This document shows positions 27,916 to 42,175 of a DNA stretch of 42,175 bases, piece after piece. The stretch's first letter is position 1, and each line of letters opens with the position of its first letter. The notes beneath the pieces are model-generated. The model worked only from the letters and a program-made list of their open reading frames with translations. It was not told the DNA's origin and ran no database searches. The position numbers were made by a program, and so were the translations under genes. Origin of the DNA: a virus; IMG/VR virus record IMGVR_UViG_3300017755_000015, positions 1 through 42,175 of that record, one strand, 5' to 3'.

Positions 27916-28806
27916 TTATTCAAAAAAATCAGTCAGTGACGACTGCTCCTTATTTCTTATTTTATCTGAGTTAACTTCTAACTCCCCTTGTTTGCGAAAC
28001 ACTAGAACGTACTCATGTACTTTACTAGTATATCTTTTACTTGCACACTTACCCATTTGTAAAGCTGCAAATATGGTGTCGTTCTTCATAACAATAACGT
28101 CATGAAGTTTTAGACCTGCCATTGTGAACATATTTATACAATCAGAATGGAAAGGTATGTATTGACCGTCCCGTCTCCAATCTCCGCATACCCATACACA
28201 AAATCCGCCAGGCACTAAAACTCTTTCTATGTTCTTGGCACATACTTCTATACGATTACGAAACTCTTCATAGTTTCTTATATCCGATAATTGTCCGTCT
28301 GCACTTTCATATCTTTCGATATCTCCATACGGTGGACAAGTCATAACTAATTGTGCACATTCATCATCAGTATGAGACATTTCACAACCGTCACCTTCTA
28401 CAATATCATAGTGACCGTCAAAGGCATGTCTTGACATTTCTGATTTAACTTTAGTTACAGTTGTTGGTGATACATCATAACCAACATAATCTCTTCCTAG
28501 TGAAGCGGATACAAATGCTCTTGTCATTCTACCTGCAAATGGGTCAACGATTGTATCCCCAACCATACTCCAATAGTGAACAATGTTCTCACACAGACCT
28601 GCGTGGAACTCAGACATCATTAAACCATTTGGTAGTCTAGGACATTCTCCTCTCTTCTCTTCATATGCAGTCAAGTATGCGTCTTCCCAATTTGACTTAG
28701 ACGCTTTACTTGGTGTTATGACTGATAAAGGAGTCCAACCAAATTGGTCAACGACTCTCTCGTTCTCATTGAACGGTAAAATGTTTTTGTAGTATTCGCT
28801 TTTCAT
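27916..28806 (-). CDS. DNA methyltransferase with C-terminal sliding-clamp-binding motif
   Basis: The 296-aa protein has the SAM-binding motif I region [20 protein letters not shown] (DPFAG at 88-92, followed by GYDVS) and the catalytic motif IV TCPPYGD at 156-162, so it is an N6-adenine or N4-cytosine methyltransferase. Motif I precedes motif IV, unlike the commonest beta class. The last residues are [11 protein letters not shown]288, L291, F294 and F295 form a canonical Q-x-x-L-x-x-F-F clamp-binding box, almost the same as the gp33 C-terminus. I infer that it is tethered to the phage sliding clamp and methylates new DNA. Target sequence cannot be read from the protein. No partner restriction enzyme is adjacent. 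Confidence 0.88.
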
Positions 28807-34080: not shown

Positions 34081-34110
34081 AGGCTAACAAAAAATGCATG
34101 TCACTGTCAA
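34081..34110 (-). promoter_or_regulatory. Sigma70-like promoter (copy 2 of a repeated element)
   Basis: The -35 TTGACA (34105-34110) and an extended TGT-TAGCCT -10 (34081-34086) are 18 bp apart. The -35 overlaps the stop codon of the upstream gene. It shares TTGACAGTGACA and TTTTTGTTAGCCT with the element at 34895-34924. The -10 keeps the first, second and last bases of TATAAT. Confidence 0.5.
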
Positions 34111-34442
34111 GCGCTCATTTCATATTTTTCGTCTTCGATTTCCATTTCGAGTTCGTCATGTTCGTTCTCGATATCCCTTAGTTTATCTTCAAAGGGTTCT
34201 ACAAGGTCGTAGATTGCGCTCTCAAGAGCGTTTACTGCTTCCCTAACCTCTTTGACCTTCCACTCCATATCGTCCTCTGAGATACCGTTATCTTCCGCCC
34301 AACTCTCTACTTCCATGTAGATATTGGAAGGCATATCCATGTACTTTATCTCTCTAGTCTTTTCGTTGACTCTGCCAACCAGTGCTTCAAGTTCCCACTT
34401 TAGGTCTTCAAGTTCACTTAGTTTTTTTACTTTATCTTCCAT
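34107..34442 (-). CDS. Acidic coiled-coil protein, unknown
   Basis: The start is the ATG at 34442 (MEDKVKKLSELEDLKWELEA), giving 111 aa; its A is the last base of the phosphatase stop (TAATG), and AAGGAG lies 7 bases upstream. A longer start at 34493 would read inside the neighbour. The product is almost entirely helical, Glu/Asp/Lys-rich with heptads (LVEPFEDKLRDIENEHDELE), so a coiled coil or DNA-mimic-like acidic protein is possible. No family recognised. Coupling suggests it works with the phosphatase. Confidence 0.65.
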   Translation of the reverse strand: MEDKVKKLSELEDLKWELEALVGRVNEKTREIKYMDMPSNIYMEVESWAEDNGISEDDMEWKVKEVREAVNALESAIYDLVEPFEDKLRDIENEHDELEMEIEDEKYEMSA

Positions 34443-34888
34443 TAAAAATCTCCTTCTGCGACTTGGACAACAGTGGTTCCTCTCTGTCTCCACATGTCAA
34501 CGACTTTGTTTCTGTCGTCAAAGACCAAGTCAATTTTACCACCCAACTCCTCAAACCTATCGGCCAAGTCGGATTTGAATTCTTCGTCAGGTCTGAAATC
34601 ACCGTCAGGTCTCAAGAACAAACCACTGTGGTCTTCACCAATCCATTCAGCAATCTGTTTCTCAGTAACCTCTCTTTCTGATTCGTTCCTAGCAGAAAAG
34701 AAAGCAACGTCATCACCTTGAGCGATAAACCTTTTTGCGATATCACAAACATGTTCAACAGGGGTATCATTTACAGTCTCTACTCTAAATGCATTCCAGT
34801 CTGCAGGTTTTTGATTTACAAAATGTCTCCTATGTTCAACGTTCGCAATAGTCCCGTCAACATCGAAGATAATTACTTTCTTATTCAT
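34442..34888 (-). CDS. HAD-family phosphatase, PNKP 3'-phosphatase-domain type
   Basis: The 148-aa protein has HAD motif I DVDGTIANVEHRR (catalytic Asp at 9 and 11), motif II FFSARNESERE (Ser65-Ala-Arg), a conserved Lys near 105 (FKSDLADRF) and motif III VFDDRNKVVDMWRQRG (DD at 124-125). The 'DDR...VVDMWR..G' ending is that of the C-terminal phosphatase domain of T4 polynucleotide kinase (PseT). The kinase half is missing, so this is a free 3'-phosphatase-like enzyme for nucleic-acid end repair or a nucleotide phosphatase. The ATG follows the promoter at 34895-34924 with no Shine-Dalgarno. Confidence 0.85.
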   Translation of the reverse strand: MNKKVIIFDVDGTIANVEHRRHFVNQKPADWNAFRVETVNDTPVEHVCDIAKRFIAQGDDVAFFSARNESEREVTEKQIAEWIGEDHSGLFLRPDGDFRPDEEFKSDLADRFEELGGKIDLVFDDRNKVVDMWRQRGTTVVQVAEGDF

Positions 34889-34894
34889 ACTATA

Positions 34895-34924
34895 AGGCTA
34901 ACAAAAACTAGCTGTCACTGTCAA
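34895..34924 (-). promoter_or_regulatory. Sigma70-like promoter (copy 1 of a repeated element)
   Basis: TTGACA (34919-34924), an 18-bp spacer and extended TGT-TAGCCT (34895-34900). The -35 lies inside the terminator hairpin of the upstream gene. Only six bases separate the -10 from the ATG of the phosphatase gene, so the transcript would begin at or next to the start codon. Confidence 0.5.
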
Positions 34925-34931
34925 CAGCTAG
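34903..34931 (-). terminator. Intrinsic terminator at the end of the 91-aa gene
   Basis: Perfect 8-bp arms CTAGCTGT and ACAGCTAG enclose an 8-base loop, followed on the minus strand by five T (34903-34907). The hairpin includes the last codons and stop of the 34908-35183 gene and overlaps the next promoter. Confidence 0.7.
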
Positions 34932-35183
34932 TTTCATTATTTTCTTCTTATTTTTAAGGAAGTCCTGCACTGCTTTTGATTCAGACTTGGACAAATCCTT
35001 GACAGATTTGATACCCCAAGTTGTACCCAAAGTGCACAGTTTGTTACCTGCTACTACAGCAGTGTTCCACATATAATCATCATTTGAATACAGTGCGTTC
35101 TTCTCACAGGCAGTAATCATGTTACGCCCTATCTCCACAATCATCATGACTGCTTCATTGTTTTCATAGATAGATTTCTTCAT
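34908..35183 (-). CDS. Hypothetical helical protein, unknown
   Basis: The start is the ATG at 35183 (MKKSIYENNEAVMMIVEIGR), giving 91 aa, whose A is the last base of the nuclease stop (TAATG) with GGAGAAAAT before it. The product is mixed helical with a Lys-rich end (FLKNKKKIMKLAVDSDS). No family recognised. It is translationally coupled to the DUF262-HNH nuclease and ends in a terminator, so these two and the 49-aa gene upstream form one transcript. A partner or modulator of the nuclease is possible but unproven. Confidence 0.65.
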   Translation of the reverse strand: MKKSIYENNEAVMMIVEIGRNMITACEKNALYSNDDYMWNTAVVAGNKLCTLGTTWGIKSVKDLSKSESKAVQDFLKNKKKIMKLAVDSDS

Positions 35184-36526
35184 TATTTTCTCCAATTACA
35201 GGTTGAGTGCACAGCGGCACAATTTTCTTGAGTCGTTGGGTGACCGTCTTTGTATAACAAAATATGGTCTCCGTGTACGTCCTCGTTGAACTCAGGCATT
35301 TCTTCATTACAGATTGCACATATACCACCCTGTTCATCGAATGCTATACGTACTTGGTCTCTAGTGAATATCCTTTGTTTGTCTTGCAGGACTTTAGCAA
35401 ATCCTATCACGTTCATTTCATCACGAATCAATACAAGTGCAACTTTGGTATCTTCACCACCGTTACCTCTCATACGTAATTCGTAAGGTGAACCTGTCAA
35501 ACCGTCCATGGGTGCAACTGCTTTTAAGTTGTCAACTGCTTTCATGTAAACTCTAAGGAATTCAAGTGGGTCAATCTTGTTACCGTTTGCGGTAATCTCA
35601 CCAACTAGGTAAGAATAATTTCTCCACTGCTTCAGTCCCATTTCTTTACCAGTCTTGACACCTCTAACTCCTTGGTTGACTAGAGTCAATACTCTCTTGA
35701 CGAAATTGACATTGTCAAATTTCTCAGGACTATCTTCTGCTTGTTCTTTGTAGAAGTCAGTAATGACTTTACCAGTTGTACCAGTCTTCGTGAAGTCTTG
35801 TTTCCTCGAATTCTGTAACATGTAAACAAGTTCTGCAAGAGTCTTATCAACGTCTAGTCTTGAATGATTAGCACCTTTGATATACTTCAAGTCACCATTA
35901 GTTTTAGTTTCAAACATTGGGTGGATATCATCATACCTAGTCCAGTTCTGAATCTGAATAGACATTGCTGACGCAATCGCCTGTCTCTTCTCTTGAGGGT
36001 TCAGGGTGTTAGTATTGTTTAACACGTCTGTAAAAAGAAACCCTGCTCTGAGAGAGTCAATGTCATAATACAACATTGCACCTAGACCTTGATTACCAAA
36101 GTGCTCCTTTGCAACCAGTGGTAACTTTTTGTAAGATAGTCCACGCAGGTCTTCTGTCATTTCTGCACCTTCAAACTTAATTGCTTTAAGGGCATCAACC
36201 TCAGGCAAATCAACCTCACCTCTAACGAATGCCAGAATCGTAGAGACTCTTTGACAACCGTCCATTACTTCTGAATCCCAATCTTCGGGAATGTTCTCAC
36301 CAAGTCTCAATGCAATTTCAGGAATGACAATTCCTTCTACAAAGAAAGATACCAAGAACTGTTGTTGCCATGCTTTGTCGGCATGAAAGTTCCTTTGATA
36401 TGCTTTTGGTGATAAGTTAACTCTCCCAATCTTACTAGATTCATGAATGAAATCTTCAACAAGAAAGACTTCCCTCTGTGGATTGCTTTTGTGACTTCCG
36501 TCTAGGAAGTATTTAAGATTCGCCAT
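35183..36526 (-). CDS. DUF262-HNH endonuclease (GmrSD-like architecture)
   Basis: The 447-aa protein joins an N-terminal DUF262/ParB-like domain to a C-terminal HNH nuclease. In the first part, YQRNF at 43-47, the helix KAWQQQFLVSFFVEGIVIPE and VMDGCQRVSTILAFVRGEVD (DGCQR at 89-93) are the DUF262 signatures. The last 50 residues have CAIC at 403-406, GDHI with Asp420-His421, NCAAVH with Asn435 and His440, and Cys443, forming a zinc-supported HNH site. DUF262 plus HNH is the architecture of GmrSD-type modification-dependent restriction and related anti-phage nucleases. A phage copy could attack rival phage or host DNA. The motif residues look intact. The start is supported by AAGGAGAAGACA before the ATG. 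Confidence 0.87.
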   Translation of the reverse strand: MANLKYFLDGSHKSNPQREVFLVEDFIHESSKIGRVNLSPKAYQRNFHADKAWQQQFLVSFFVEGIVIPEIALRLGENIPEDWDSEVMDGCQRVSTILAFVRGEVDLPEVDALKAIKFEGAEMTEDLRGLSYKKLPLVAKEHFGNQGLGAMLYYDIDSLRAGFLFTDVLNNTNTLNPQEKRQAIASAMSIQIQNWTRYDDIHPMFETKTNGDLKYIKGANHSRLDVDKTLAELVYMLQNSRKQDFTKTGTTGKVITDFYKEQAEDSPEKFDNVNFVKRVLTLVNQGVRGVKTGKEMGLKQWRNYSYLVGEITANGNKIDPLEFLRVYMKAVDNLKAVAPMDGLTGSPYELRMRGNGGEDTKVALVLIRDEMNVIGFAKVLQDKQRIFTRDQVRIAFDEQGGICAICNEEMPEFNEDVHGDHILLYKDGHPTTQENCAAVHSTCNWRK

Positions 36527-36662
36527 TGTCTTCTCCTTGATTAAGGTTAAGAACCAATGGTTCGTTTGGTTCCCTATCAGACATGAAGGGTTCCAGTGTT
36601 GCAGTAATTTCTTCCCCTACGTCTGCAAACTTCTCACGTAGGTATATAGCCAATTGTTTCAT
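36513..36662 (-). CDS. 49-aa acidic protein preceding the DUF262-HNH nuclease
   Basis: An ATG at 36660-36662 with TAGGAGAACAG before it opens a 49-codon frame (MKQLAIYLREKFADVGEEIT, then ATLEPFMSDREPNEPLVLNL) ending at TAA 36513-36515, 14 bp inside the nuclease gene. The nuclease Shine-Dalgarno lies in its last codons, so translation is coupled. The C-terminal half is acidic. It is the first gene after the strong promoter at 36762-36791. Function unknown; a leader peptide or nuclease modulator are options. Confidence 0.65.
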   Translation of the reverse strand: MKQLAIYLREKFADVGEEITATLEPFMSDREPNEPLVLNLNQGEDNGES

Positions 36663-36761
36663 TCTGTTCTCCTATAGAAATATTGGTGGACTTCGTCCGT
36701 TAATATAACGACAATAGACCTTTAGAATATGTTCCAAGGTTTATTGCCAAGTACAGATACC

Positions 36762-36791
36762 ATTATACGATAACAGCCATGTCATCGTCAA
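36762..36791 (-). promoter_or_regulatory. Strong sigma70-type promoter for the nuclease operon
   Basis: TTGACG (36786-36791), an 18-bp spacer and a perfect TATAAT (36762-36767) on the minus strand, about 100 bp upstream of the 49-aa gene. The -35 region TTGACGATGACA resembles the TTGACAGTGACA of the promoters at 34105 and 34919. It is the best host-type early promoter in the window. Confidence 0.8.
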
Positions 36792-36799
36792 TAGGGTTT

Positions 36800-37048
36800 T
36801 TAAATATTTTTTTGAATTAAATCAAGTTCTTCAATTTTCTTATTGATTATCTCGACTCTTTTTGGCCAGTAGATGTAGTCCTTATCTGAATCCTTTGCAA
36901 GGTTCTCTAATAGAGGTCTGATAAACTCATCTAGTTTATTGATTATTTCTGTAGCAGTGGTTGTCTTCTCTACGATTTTAGTATCTACAGTCGCAAGTTC
37001 GTCTGCGTCCATAGCGGTAAAACCGAAGTCGTTGTATTCTATGCTCAT
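36800..37048 (-). CDS. Conserved small phage protein, unknown
   Basis: The 82-aa protein has a Thr/Asp-rich start (FGFTAMDADELATVDTK) and a helical end (KLDEFIRPLLENLAKDSDKD, then YIYWPKRVEIINKKIEELD). The 'PLLxNLxxxxxKDYIxWPxR' block is shared by many large phages, without a known role. A TATAAATA box lies 5 bp before the ATG, with no Shine-Dalgarno, as at gp25. Confidence 0.75.
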   Translation of the reverse strand: MSIEYNDFGFTAMDADELATVDTKIVEKTTTATEIINKLDEFIRPLLENLAKDSDKDYIYWPKRVEIINKKIEELDLIQKNI

Positions 37049-40551: not shown

Positions 40552-41246
40552 TTAACAACTTTCACTAATATACAATTCTTATTAACAAGATTATTCTCTG
40601 GCGTCTTAGACTTAGTTTTCAACTCGTCCATGAAACCGTTTGCAATAATATTGCCACCTTTAATAAGCCTATCAAGTAACTTGACATCTGTCAAGGTCTT
40701 TTCTTCAACTTTATCAACAGAAGTTATTCCTGTGTTTTTTACACTCAAACCATATGAACTGTAGCACCTTAACTTCCTGCTTTTAACATTGTACGTAAAT
40801 AGTTTCTTGGCACGAATGATTTCGATTGGGTCTATACTTGTTAATCCTTCTCCTGATTGTAGATAGTTTAGTTTCTTTACCTTCTGTGCTGGTGTTAGTA
40901 TTCTTTTCTTTCTTACAATCTTATTATCTTTCAACCACCGTTCAATATCAGATTCTATTTTTATATGAAAGTCTAGATACTTTTCTTTTTGTTTTGTTGT
41001 GAGGAAACTATATCCTTCTGCTAACTGTTCACAGTCTTCTTCGTTTTTAACTTCATAGATAATATGTTGGTTGAGACCAATCATATATTTAACCACCATA
41101 GGACTATAACCTAATCGGTTTAACCACTTGTACATATCGAATTTCTTAGGCCAGTTATCGATTGCTTCTTCCACGTCTCCCCACGCTTCTAAAGCTTTTT
41201 CACGACACCTTTCTTGAATCGAAGGTTTAATCTTCGGTTGAATCAT
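40548..41246 (-). CDS. Conserved marine T4-like phage protein, unknown
   Basis: The 232-aa protein has FDMYKWLNRLGYSPMVVKYM, then EYSFLTTKQ-type helix sequence (EGYSFLTTKQKEKYLDFHIK), a basic centre (RKKRILTPAQKVKKLNYLQS) and IIRAKKLFTYNVKSRKLRCY followed by SSYGLSVKNTGITSVD. The last block recurs in marine T4-like phages but has no known function. It is coupled at both ends: a 20-bp overlap with the RimK-RimB gene and ATGA with RNase H. Confidence 0.7.
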   Translation of the reverse strand: MIQPKIKPSIQERCREKALEAWGDVEEAIDNWPKKFDMYKWLNRLGYSPMVVKYMIGLNQHIIYEVKNEEDCEQLAEGYSFLTTKQKEKYLDFHIKIESDIERWLKDNKIVRKKRILTPAQKVKKLNYLQSGEGLTSIDPIEIIRAKKLFTYNVKSRKLRCYSSYGLSVKNTGITSVDKVEEKTLTDVKLLDRLIKGGNIIANGFMDELKTKSKTPENNLVNKNCILVKVVK

Positions 41247-42175
41247 CTCTCTTATTAGTTAACAAAAACTTCCTCGCTGGATTTATCATTAGGTTCGCCC
41301 TTTTCATAAAGTCACGATTGACTAGGAAAGGAATAAAGTTACGTTTATCTAGTGATACTTCTTGTTCATATTCTGTATTCAAGAAGTTCACCTTCATACT
41401 TACTACAGGTCTTTCTTCTGCAGGTTTTACTAACTCAACCATGCGTACTAATCTAGCACTGTGTTTCTTCCCGTGCCAACCCGTCCAAGTAACTTTCTTA
41501 CCTACGATTTTTAAATCCTCTGCGTGTAGAGAACAAACCGTTGTGTTGTTACCTGTGTCCAATTTTGCTGTCATTTCTTCACCGTCAACTTCCATGGTCT
41601 CTAAGACACCACACTCTTTAGGTGAGTATTTCCAAATGTCTCTGTCCATGTATTTGTCTATAACCATTTCAGAAACGTTCTTCTTTATAATGTTACTAAT
41701 ACCTGCGGTGCCAGGCGAGTGATTAACTTCGAGAATATATGGGTCTTCCTTGTCTCTATTCTTTGCAGGAATAAAGTCAACACCAACCCATTGTCCATTC
41801 ACTGCCTTAGCAGCTCTGAGACATGCGTCTTTCTCTACGTCCGTAAGTTCTACTTCGTCACCCGTAGCACCCTGTGACATGTTACTTCTAAAGTCACCAG
41901 TAATTTTATTACGTTTCATTGCACCGATAATCTCACGATTAACAATCACAACTCTAACGTCAAAGTCCGATTCGATATACTCTTGTAATAGAATATCACA
42001 GTAAGGGTCAATCTTATAAATCAAACTAACCTGTGATTGTAATGAACGTTCTGTTTCAATTAATAGAACACCCACACCTTTAGAACCCTGTAATGTTTTA
42101 AGTACCATAGGGAATTCATTGTCTAATGATTCGTGTGCTACGTCTACTGTCTCAGGTTCGTCATTCGGAATCAAA
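41227..42175 (-). CDS. RimK-type ATP-grasp ligase fused to RimB-type retropepsin domain (partial, N-terminus beyond window)
   Basis: The frame is open to the right edge, so the N-terminus is outside; 315 residues are visible. Residues 24-36 (VLKTLQGSKGVGV), DVRVVIVNREIIGAMKR near 72-88, VDFIPA at 132-137 and EVNHSPG at 149-155 are ATP-grasp motifs of the RimK family, which adds glutamates to ribosomal protein bS6. From about 190 a second domain has KLDTGNNTTV (Asp-Thr-Gly at 206-208), TGWHGKKHSARLVRM and NRDFMKR, matching the RimB/'ATP-dependent zinc protease' retropepsin-like family (PF05618). RimB acts with RimK in the Pseudomonas RimABK system. A single-chain phage version would combine ligase and protease. 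Both sites look intact. Confidence 0.85.
   Translation of the reverse strand, partial: LIPNDEPETVDVAHESLDNEFPMVLKTLQGSKGVGVLLIETERSLQSQVSLIYKIDPYCDILLQEYIESDFDVRVVIVNREIIGAMKRNKITGDFRSNMSQGATGDEVELTDVEKDACLRAAKAVNGQWVGVDFIPAKNRDKEDPYILEVNHSPGTAGISNIIKKNVSEMVIDKYMDRDIWKYSPKECGVLETMEVDGEEMTAKLDTGNNTTVCSLHAEDLKIVGKKVTWTGWHGKKHSARLVRMVELVKPAEERPVVSMKVNFLNTEYEQEVSLDKRNFIPFLVNRDFMKRANLMINPARKFLLTNKRDDSTED

Follow-up and report, generated by a model that had tools for sequence, protein, structure and literature searches.

Comparison of related loci indicates that the window (the whole 42,175-nt stretch of DNA analyzed here, a 42-kb virus fragment from IMG/VR) carries an exchanged nuclease cassette in a cargo site. 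It does not appear to carry the self-contained three-gene operon with its own promoter that a preliminary description had proposed, as the 91-aa gene and the promoter position are resident and the 49-aa gene is optional. The cassette is 1.6 kb and consists of a DUF262-HNH nuclease gene, in most cases accompanied by a 49-aa gene and a structured leader, located between two resident genes that encode proteins of 82 aa and 91 aa. The 49-aa, 447-aa and 91-aa ORFs, the promoter and the terminator-like stem are all on the minus strand. The virus is a T4-like marine myovirus, as shown by its T4-type baseplate and tail proteins, single-strand binding protein, helicase loader and late-transcription coactivator. 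For the 82-aa gene, Phage C48C1 and Pelagibacter phage Mosig are the closest of the annotated records. No match to the window DNA was found in the phage collection, and an Rfam search of the window did not find a known RNA.

The 447-aa ORF (positions 35183–36526) is a real gene for an intact DUF262 protein with a C-terminal HNH domain, maintained under purifying selection. The DUF262/GmrSD_N region is of the ParB/Srx type (residues 42–191, positions 35954–36403) and matches PF03235 with an E value of 4.5e-6 and 27.4 bits, a weak match just below the Pfam cut-off of 33.2. The HNH domain (residues 403–447, positions 35186–35320) matches PF01844 with an E value of 4.6e-4 and 20.7 bits, just below the cut-off of 21.4; the HNH match is above the cut-off in the nucleases of loci L015 and L092. 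The protein also matches PADLOC NsnA (E value 4.4e-9), a name for which a literature search turned up no paper. The DGCQR motif (residues 89–93, positions 36248–36262) is invariant in six aligned window-type alleles, and the motif and the HNH residues are kept without exception in relatives of 94, 77, 73, 53 and 50% identity. The GDH and both asparagines of the HNH domain (N435 and N444) are invariant down to a relative of 22% identity. The dN/dS is about 0.2–0.3, with values of about 0.13–0.36 between diverged alleles where dS can be estimated. This conservation of motifs, together with the low dN/dS, implies a maintained gene and not a remnant, and the phage-borne nuclease with intact DGCQR and HNH residues is thus as first described. 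An AlphaFold2 model made from a 12-sequence alignment is poor (pLDDT 49), and Foldseek gave no fold match.

Of the sequence features expected of GmrSD in the broad sense, the 447-aa protein has the C-terminal HNH/His-Me finger nuclease in the same gene; the N-terminal DUF262/ParB_n domain with a DGQQR-type motif is represented by a weak match and by DGCQR. The GmrSD-like architecture assigned earlier to this phage gene is borne out by published bacterial type IV systems, whose groups include single-gene ParB_n plus nuclease (HNH or DUF1524) forms and several of which restrict T-even phages (PMC12373910). The single-gene ParB_n + HNH systems are the closest known kind: like the window protein, in which DUF262 is a weak match, they encode an N-terminal DUF262/ParB_n part together with a C-terminal HNH and have a conserved DG-x-QR motif, and they differ in that the carrier here is a T4-like phage, the motif is DGCQR and not DGQQR, the HNH is of the PF01844 type and DUF1524 is missing (PMC12373910). 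Membership in GmrSD in the strict sense does not follow, since GmrSD_C/DUF1524 (PF07510) gave no Pfam match in the 447-aa protein at an E value of 1. DUF1524 is the usual GmrD domain. SspE and BrxU likewise couple a DUF262 NTPase to a His-Me finger nuclease, but both have DUF1524, whereas the window nuclease does not. SspE works with a phosphorothioation system; here the search for such a system covered the neighboring genes alone. DUF262 has a ParB/Srx fold (PMC4619093). Use of NTP by the window protein is not assured, because DGCQR stands in place of DGQQR.

No close relative of the nuclease was found in a scan of bacterial and archaeal genomes, and phage and plasmid records gave only weak, DUF262-wide matches. 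Two other T4-like marine contigs, L275 and L277, have genes with the same two domains that differ in length (494–523 aa), are about 22–26% identical and have the canonical DGQQR. The L275 gene is about 7 kb from an rnh-type exonuclease gene, outside the cargo site, which is empty in that record. Carriage of the DUF262-HNH architecture by phages is thus patchy but extends beyond the window lineage.

Judged from sequence, T4-like marine myoviruses have a cargo site where the 82-aa gene meets the 91-aa gene. This junction was surveyed at 83 distinct loci; the best matches per query were kept, hence the counts are not population frequencies. The junction is empty at 51 loci, has about 200 nt at 2, holds a cargo of 0.95–2 kb at 27 and is cut off at 3. 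Eight of the 27 occupied junctions have a DUF262-HNH gene and 19 have other cargo. The left border is the 82-aa gene (positions 36800–37048, minus strand), which is about 70–96% identical in nearly all locus-bearing relatives whether the junction holds cargo or not. The right border, outside the nuclease module, is the 91-aa gene (positions 34908–35183). The two genes are usually adjacent in relatives, 40–84 nt apart, and in about 50 junctions of related T4-like marine phages the 91-aa gene is beside the 82-aa gene without a nuclease. The 91-aa gene had been called coupled to the nuclease: its ATG does overlap the nuclease stop codon (TAATG), but it is an ordinary neighboring gene. A role of the 91-aa protein as antitoxin or modulator of the nuclease is rejected, since nuclease-free phages also have its gene as a resident.

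The empty junction of L098, GTATAATGGTATCTAAACTTAATAGGAGAAGTTATG, corresponds to GTATAATGGTATCTGTACTT at the left of the window cassette plus GGAGAAAATAATG at the right. In the simplest reading, the cassette would lie between a resident promoter and a resident ribosome-binding site; the latter, which serves the 91-aa gene, would now form part of the final nuclease codons (TGG AGA AAA TAATG). The promoter noted initially, TTGACG-N18-TATAAT, is present at positions 36762–36791 and has 11 of 12 matches, the best of 56 within 27.5–42.2 kb. Of 50 empty junctions, 44 have a sigma70-like promoter (at least 9 of 12 matches) after the 82-aa stop codon, placed and surrounded as in the window, compared with 25% of shuffles. 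Because these nuclease-free junctions have a promoter at the same place, that of the window probably belongs to the 91-aa gene as its resident promoter and now drives the cassette. The hairpin proposed as an intrinsic terminator has an 11-pair stem (positions 34905–34934), but it overlaps the final codons of the gene for the 91-aa protein, and terminator-like hits across the region are no more frequent than by chance (9 found, 8.7 expected). Positions 34081–34135 and 34895–34949 are an 80%-identical repeat with a terminator hairpin and a promoter-like site, found after two different genes. Similar terminator-promoter composites (GGGG..CCCC, a T-run and TATAAT) precede the 91-aa gene in relatives.

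The 49-aa gene (positions 36513–36662) encodes an acidic protein (11 D/E, 4 K/R) and overlaps the nuclease ORF by 14 nt, as previously described. It is conserved in L007, L015, L033 and partly in L014, and is absent at the nuclease loci L092, L093, L178 and L179, a lineage of 49% identity. It appears to be an optional companion of the closer nuclease alleles only. The expectation that the three genes travel together therefore fails for the 91-aa gene, given its presence in nuclease-free junctions, and is borne out only in part for the 49-aa gene, which is missing beside the L092-type nuclease.

Between the promoter and the start codon is a leader of about 100 nt that folds better than shuffled sequences in the window, L007, L015, L014 and L092 (z-scores of -2.4 to -3.9; window -2.5, L007 -2.5, L015 -3.9). 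The structured part (positions 36688–36748, minus strand) has hairpin A at positions 36748–36710 and hairpin B at 36698–36688. All 18 base pairs of the window-type leader are kept in the three sequences (window, L007 and L015), with two changes on both sides of a pair. The L014 and L092 leaders form a hairpin of different sequence in which 10 of 10 pairs are kept with three both-side changes, which are small numbers. A further leader hairpin was not preserved in the alignment as made. The fold in L015 covers the ribosome-binding site. The leader hairpins may exert translational control.

Comparison of related phages at the sequence level demonstrates that nuclease alleles are swapped, and that the cassette is replaced by other alleles or cargo in relatives. 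The flanking proteins of L014 and L015 are 93–100% identical (dS 0–0.18), but the nucleases are only 54% identical with a dS of 1.44. Nucleotide identity falls from the end of the 82-aa gene onward and recovers in the HNH region; identity of the nucleases is 48% in the N-terminal part, 53% in the middle and 77% in the HNH. L007 and L013 have flanking proteins of 100% identity and nucleases of 89%. The window encodes a stand-alone PNKP-like phosphatase (positions 34442–34888, minus strand; HAD_PNKP, E value 4.6e-27), which is not found in the L092-type locus. Between the window and L008, the nuclease dS is 0.32 (the last 123 nuclease codons in L008), compared with 1.85 for PNKP and 1.6–1.9 or saturation for the flanks, and the lower value for the nuclease implies a recent transfer between diverged phages. 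The window and L123 share a tract of 99–100% identity over p106, p82, p49, the nuclease and p91, with divergence on both sides (dS 0.23 for PNKP and 0.25 for p448). Five nuclease-bearing contigs (L008, L013, L016, L018 and L033) each end inside the cassette, as is expected if co-occurring phages share it.

The 19 cargos without DUF262 fall into one linked family of 12 (by phmmer), a second of 4, a third of 2, and L113, whose cargo matches a restriction endonuclease family (E value 1.1e-5). The first three families display ParB-like motif patterns by eye; a Pfam search of them gave no ParB match. An AlphaFold2 model of the L163-family cargo is poor, and its top Foldseek hits, ParB-family proteins (E values 0.01–0.1) and sulfiredoxin (0.2), lend weak support. 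Profile comparison of the nuclease with ParB-like cargo was negative, as were two of three comparisons of cargo with cargo. In L183 the gene after the ParB-like one encodes endonuclease VII (E value 9.5e-9), and in L117 it encodes a methyltransferase. That related viruses leave the site vacant or hold a different, sometimes nuclease-linked gene suggests a possible site for weapons between viruses.

The allele swapping and cargo-site context are compatible with a conflict module. The reading preferred here, put forward tentatively and with somewhat less than an even chance of being correct, is that the cassette encodes a GmrSD-like nuclease, exchanged between phages and gated by NTP, which is directed against competing DNA, most plausibly the genomes of co-infecting phages. 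The cassette would have been inserted behind the resident promoter and in front of the 91-aa gene; that promoter would transcribe it, the last nuclease codons would provide the 91-aa gene with a ribosome-binding site, and the leader hairpins may keep translation low until needed. On sensing foreign DNA by some feature, probably a base modification, the DUF262 (ParB/Srx-fold) part would bind and hydrolyze NTP; hydrolysis would license the HNH domain to cut or nick the sensed DNA. In SspE, DUF262 NTPase activity activates the nuclease (PMC10952713). In a lytic phage the most useful target would be a co-infecting phage genome, with host or plasmid DNA less likely. Divergence of the DUF262 part and allele swapping would alter specificity. 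The domain matches, invariant motifs, dN/dS, junction survey, allele swaps and the greater divergence of the N-terminal and middle parts than of the HNH argue for this reading. The replacement of DGQQR by DGCQR, the missing DUF1524 and the poor nuclease model without a fold match count against it. Swapping and placement in a cargo site are, moreover, equally expected of a homing nuclease, and self-protection of the phage is unexplained, since its own methyltransferase also occurs without the nuclease.

The strongest rival, judged less likely than the preferred reading although it would account for much of what was observed, is a free-standing, selfish nuclease of the homing type. It would cut a co-infecting relative at the vacant 82-aa/91-aa junction or in sequence close by, repair would copy the cassette with its flanks, and exclusion would be a by-product. 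The nuclease gene is inserted where the site of relatives is empty (51 empty, 27 occupied), between core genes and near replication genes, and both the window/L123 tract, with divergence on either side, and the horizontal transfer between the window and L008 are as homing would produce. Phage nuclease genes are known at such boundaries (PMC10448857). The phage homing endonucleases T4 Mob/Seg, ICP1 HEGs and PhiPA3 gp210 are likewise accessory nucleases between core genes, horizontally exchanged and located where recombination tracts end. Enzymes of the homing type can also exclude rivals, so that homing and exclusion may coincide (PMC11620839). However, the DNA-recognition part of the window nuclease is different: searches of Pfam and PHROGs gave no match to AP2, NUMOD, zinc-finger or GIY-YIG domains, the nuclease plus DNA-binding layout of known HEGs is not seen, and DUF262 with a C-terminal HNH is not described as a homing-enzyme architecture in the portions of the literature searched. 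The site is shared with ParB-like genes that have no recognizable nuclease domain, and other cargo there mostly has no recognizable nuclease by itself. The cassette-limited swap between L014 and L015 is unlike classic co-conversion, and the close relatives seen all carry the cassette, so no empty/occupied polymorphism is observed among them.

An improbable alternative is a takeover nuclease directed against host, plasmid or prophage DNA, with the phage DNA protected by its own modification. The window does encode an N4/N6 DNA methyltransferase (positions 27916–28806, minus strand; PF01555, E value 2.5e-21), but this gene also occurs in relatives lacking the nuclease, e.g., the L098 record, and a search of the L092 and L123 records, which are fragments only, did not find it. 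An accessory, rapidly swapped nuclease is also unlike a core takeover function. A link of the nuclease to this methyltransferase is rejected, as the latter also occurs without the former; it is 77–93% identical in several relatives, independent of the nuclease. Least probable is that the ParB/Srx-like proteins of the site, nuclease included, are mainly DNA- or RNA-binding regulators of the junction, e.g., of neighbor transcription, with an incidental HNH: most cargo proteins are ParB-like without a recognizable nuclease domain and the leaders are structured, but the HNH catalytic residues are invariant, several cargos have nuclease domains or nuclease neighbors, and most phages have no cargo.

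Bacteria are known to use GmrSD-type enzymes as weapons against T4-like phages. If the preferred reading, a nuclease against competing DNA, is true, an enzyme of this kind is swapped cargo inside T4-like phages, which may use it on each other. A broader proposal, more doubtful than either this reading or homing, is that the 82-aa/91-aa junction is kept by T4-like marine phages as a dedicated site for weapons. Interchangeable modules, each with its own structured leader, would be swapped there under selection imposed by phage-phage conflict; they would combine a sensor of ParB/Srx fold with a nuclease or methyltransferase, either as a fusion or as the next gene. The junction also offers a well-defined place to search for further unnamed conflict genes, with at least three separate cargo families that have no or weak database matches. 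The cargo proteins of L110, L117, L127, L132, L144, L162, L163, L183, L201, L209, L219, L222, L255 and L257 are 325–423 aa, belong to three families and are without Pfam matches. At many of these loci the promoter -35 (TAGACA) starts at the 82-aa stop codon, and several have long leaders. The L113 and L115 junctions have a tRNA-like sequence (CGTCTAGTGGTTAGGACACATGGTTTTCATCCATG...), with or without protein cargo. At the end of the window (positions 41227–42174, minus strand), a single protein has a RimK-like ATP-grasp domain followed by a Zn-protease-like domain.
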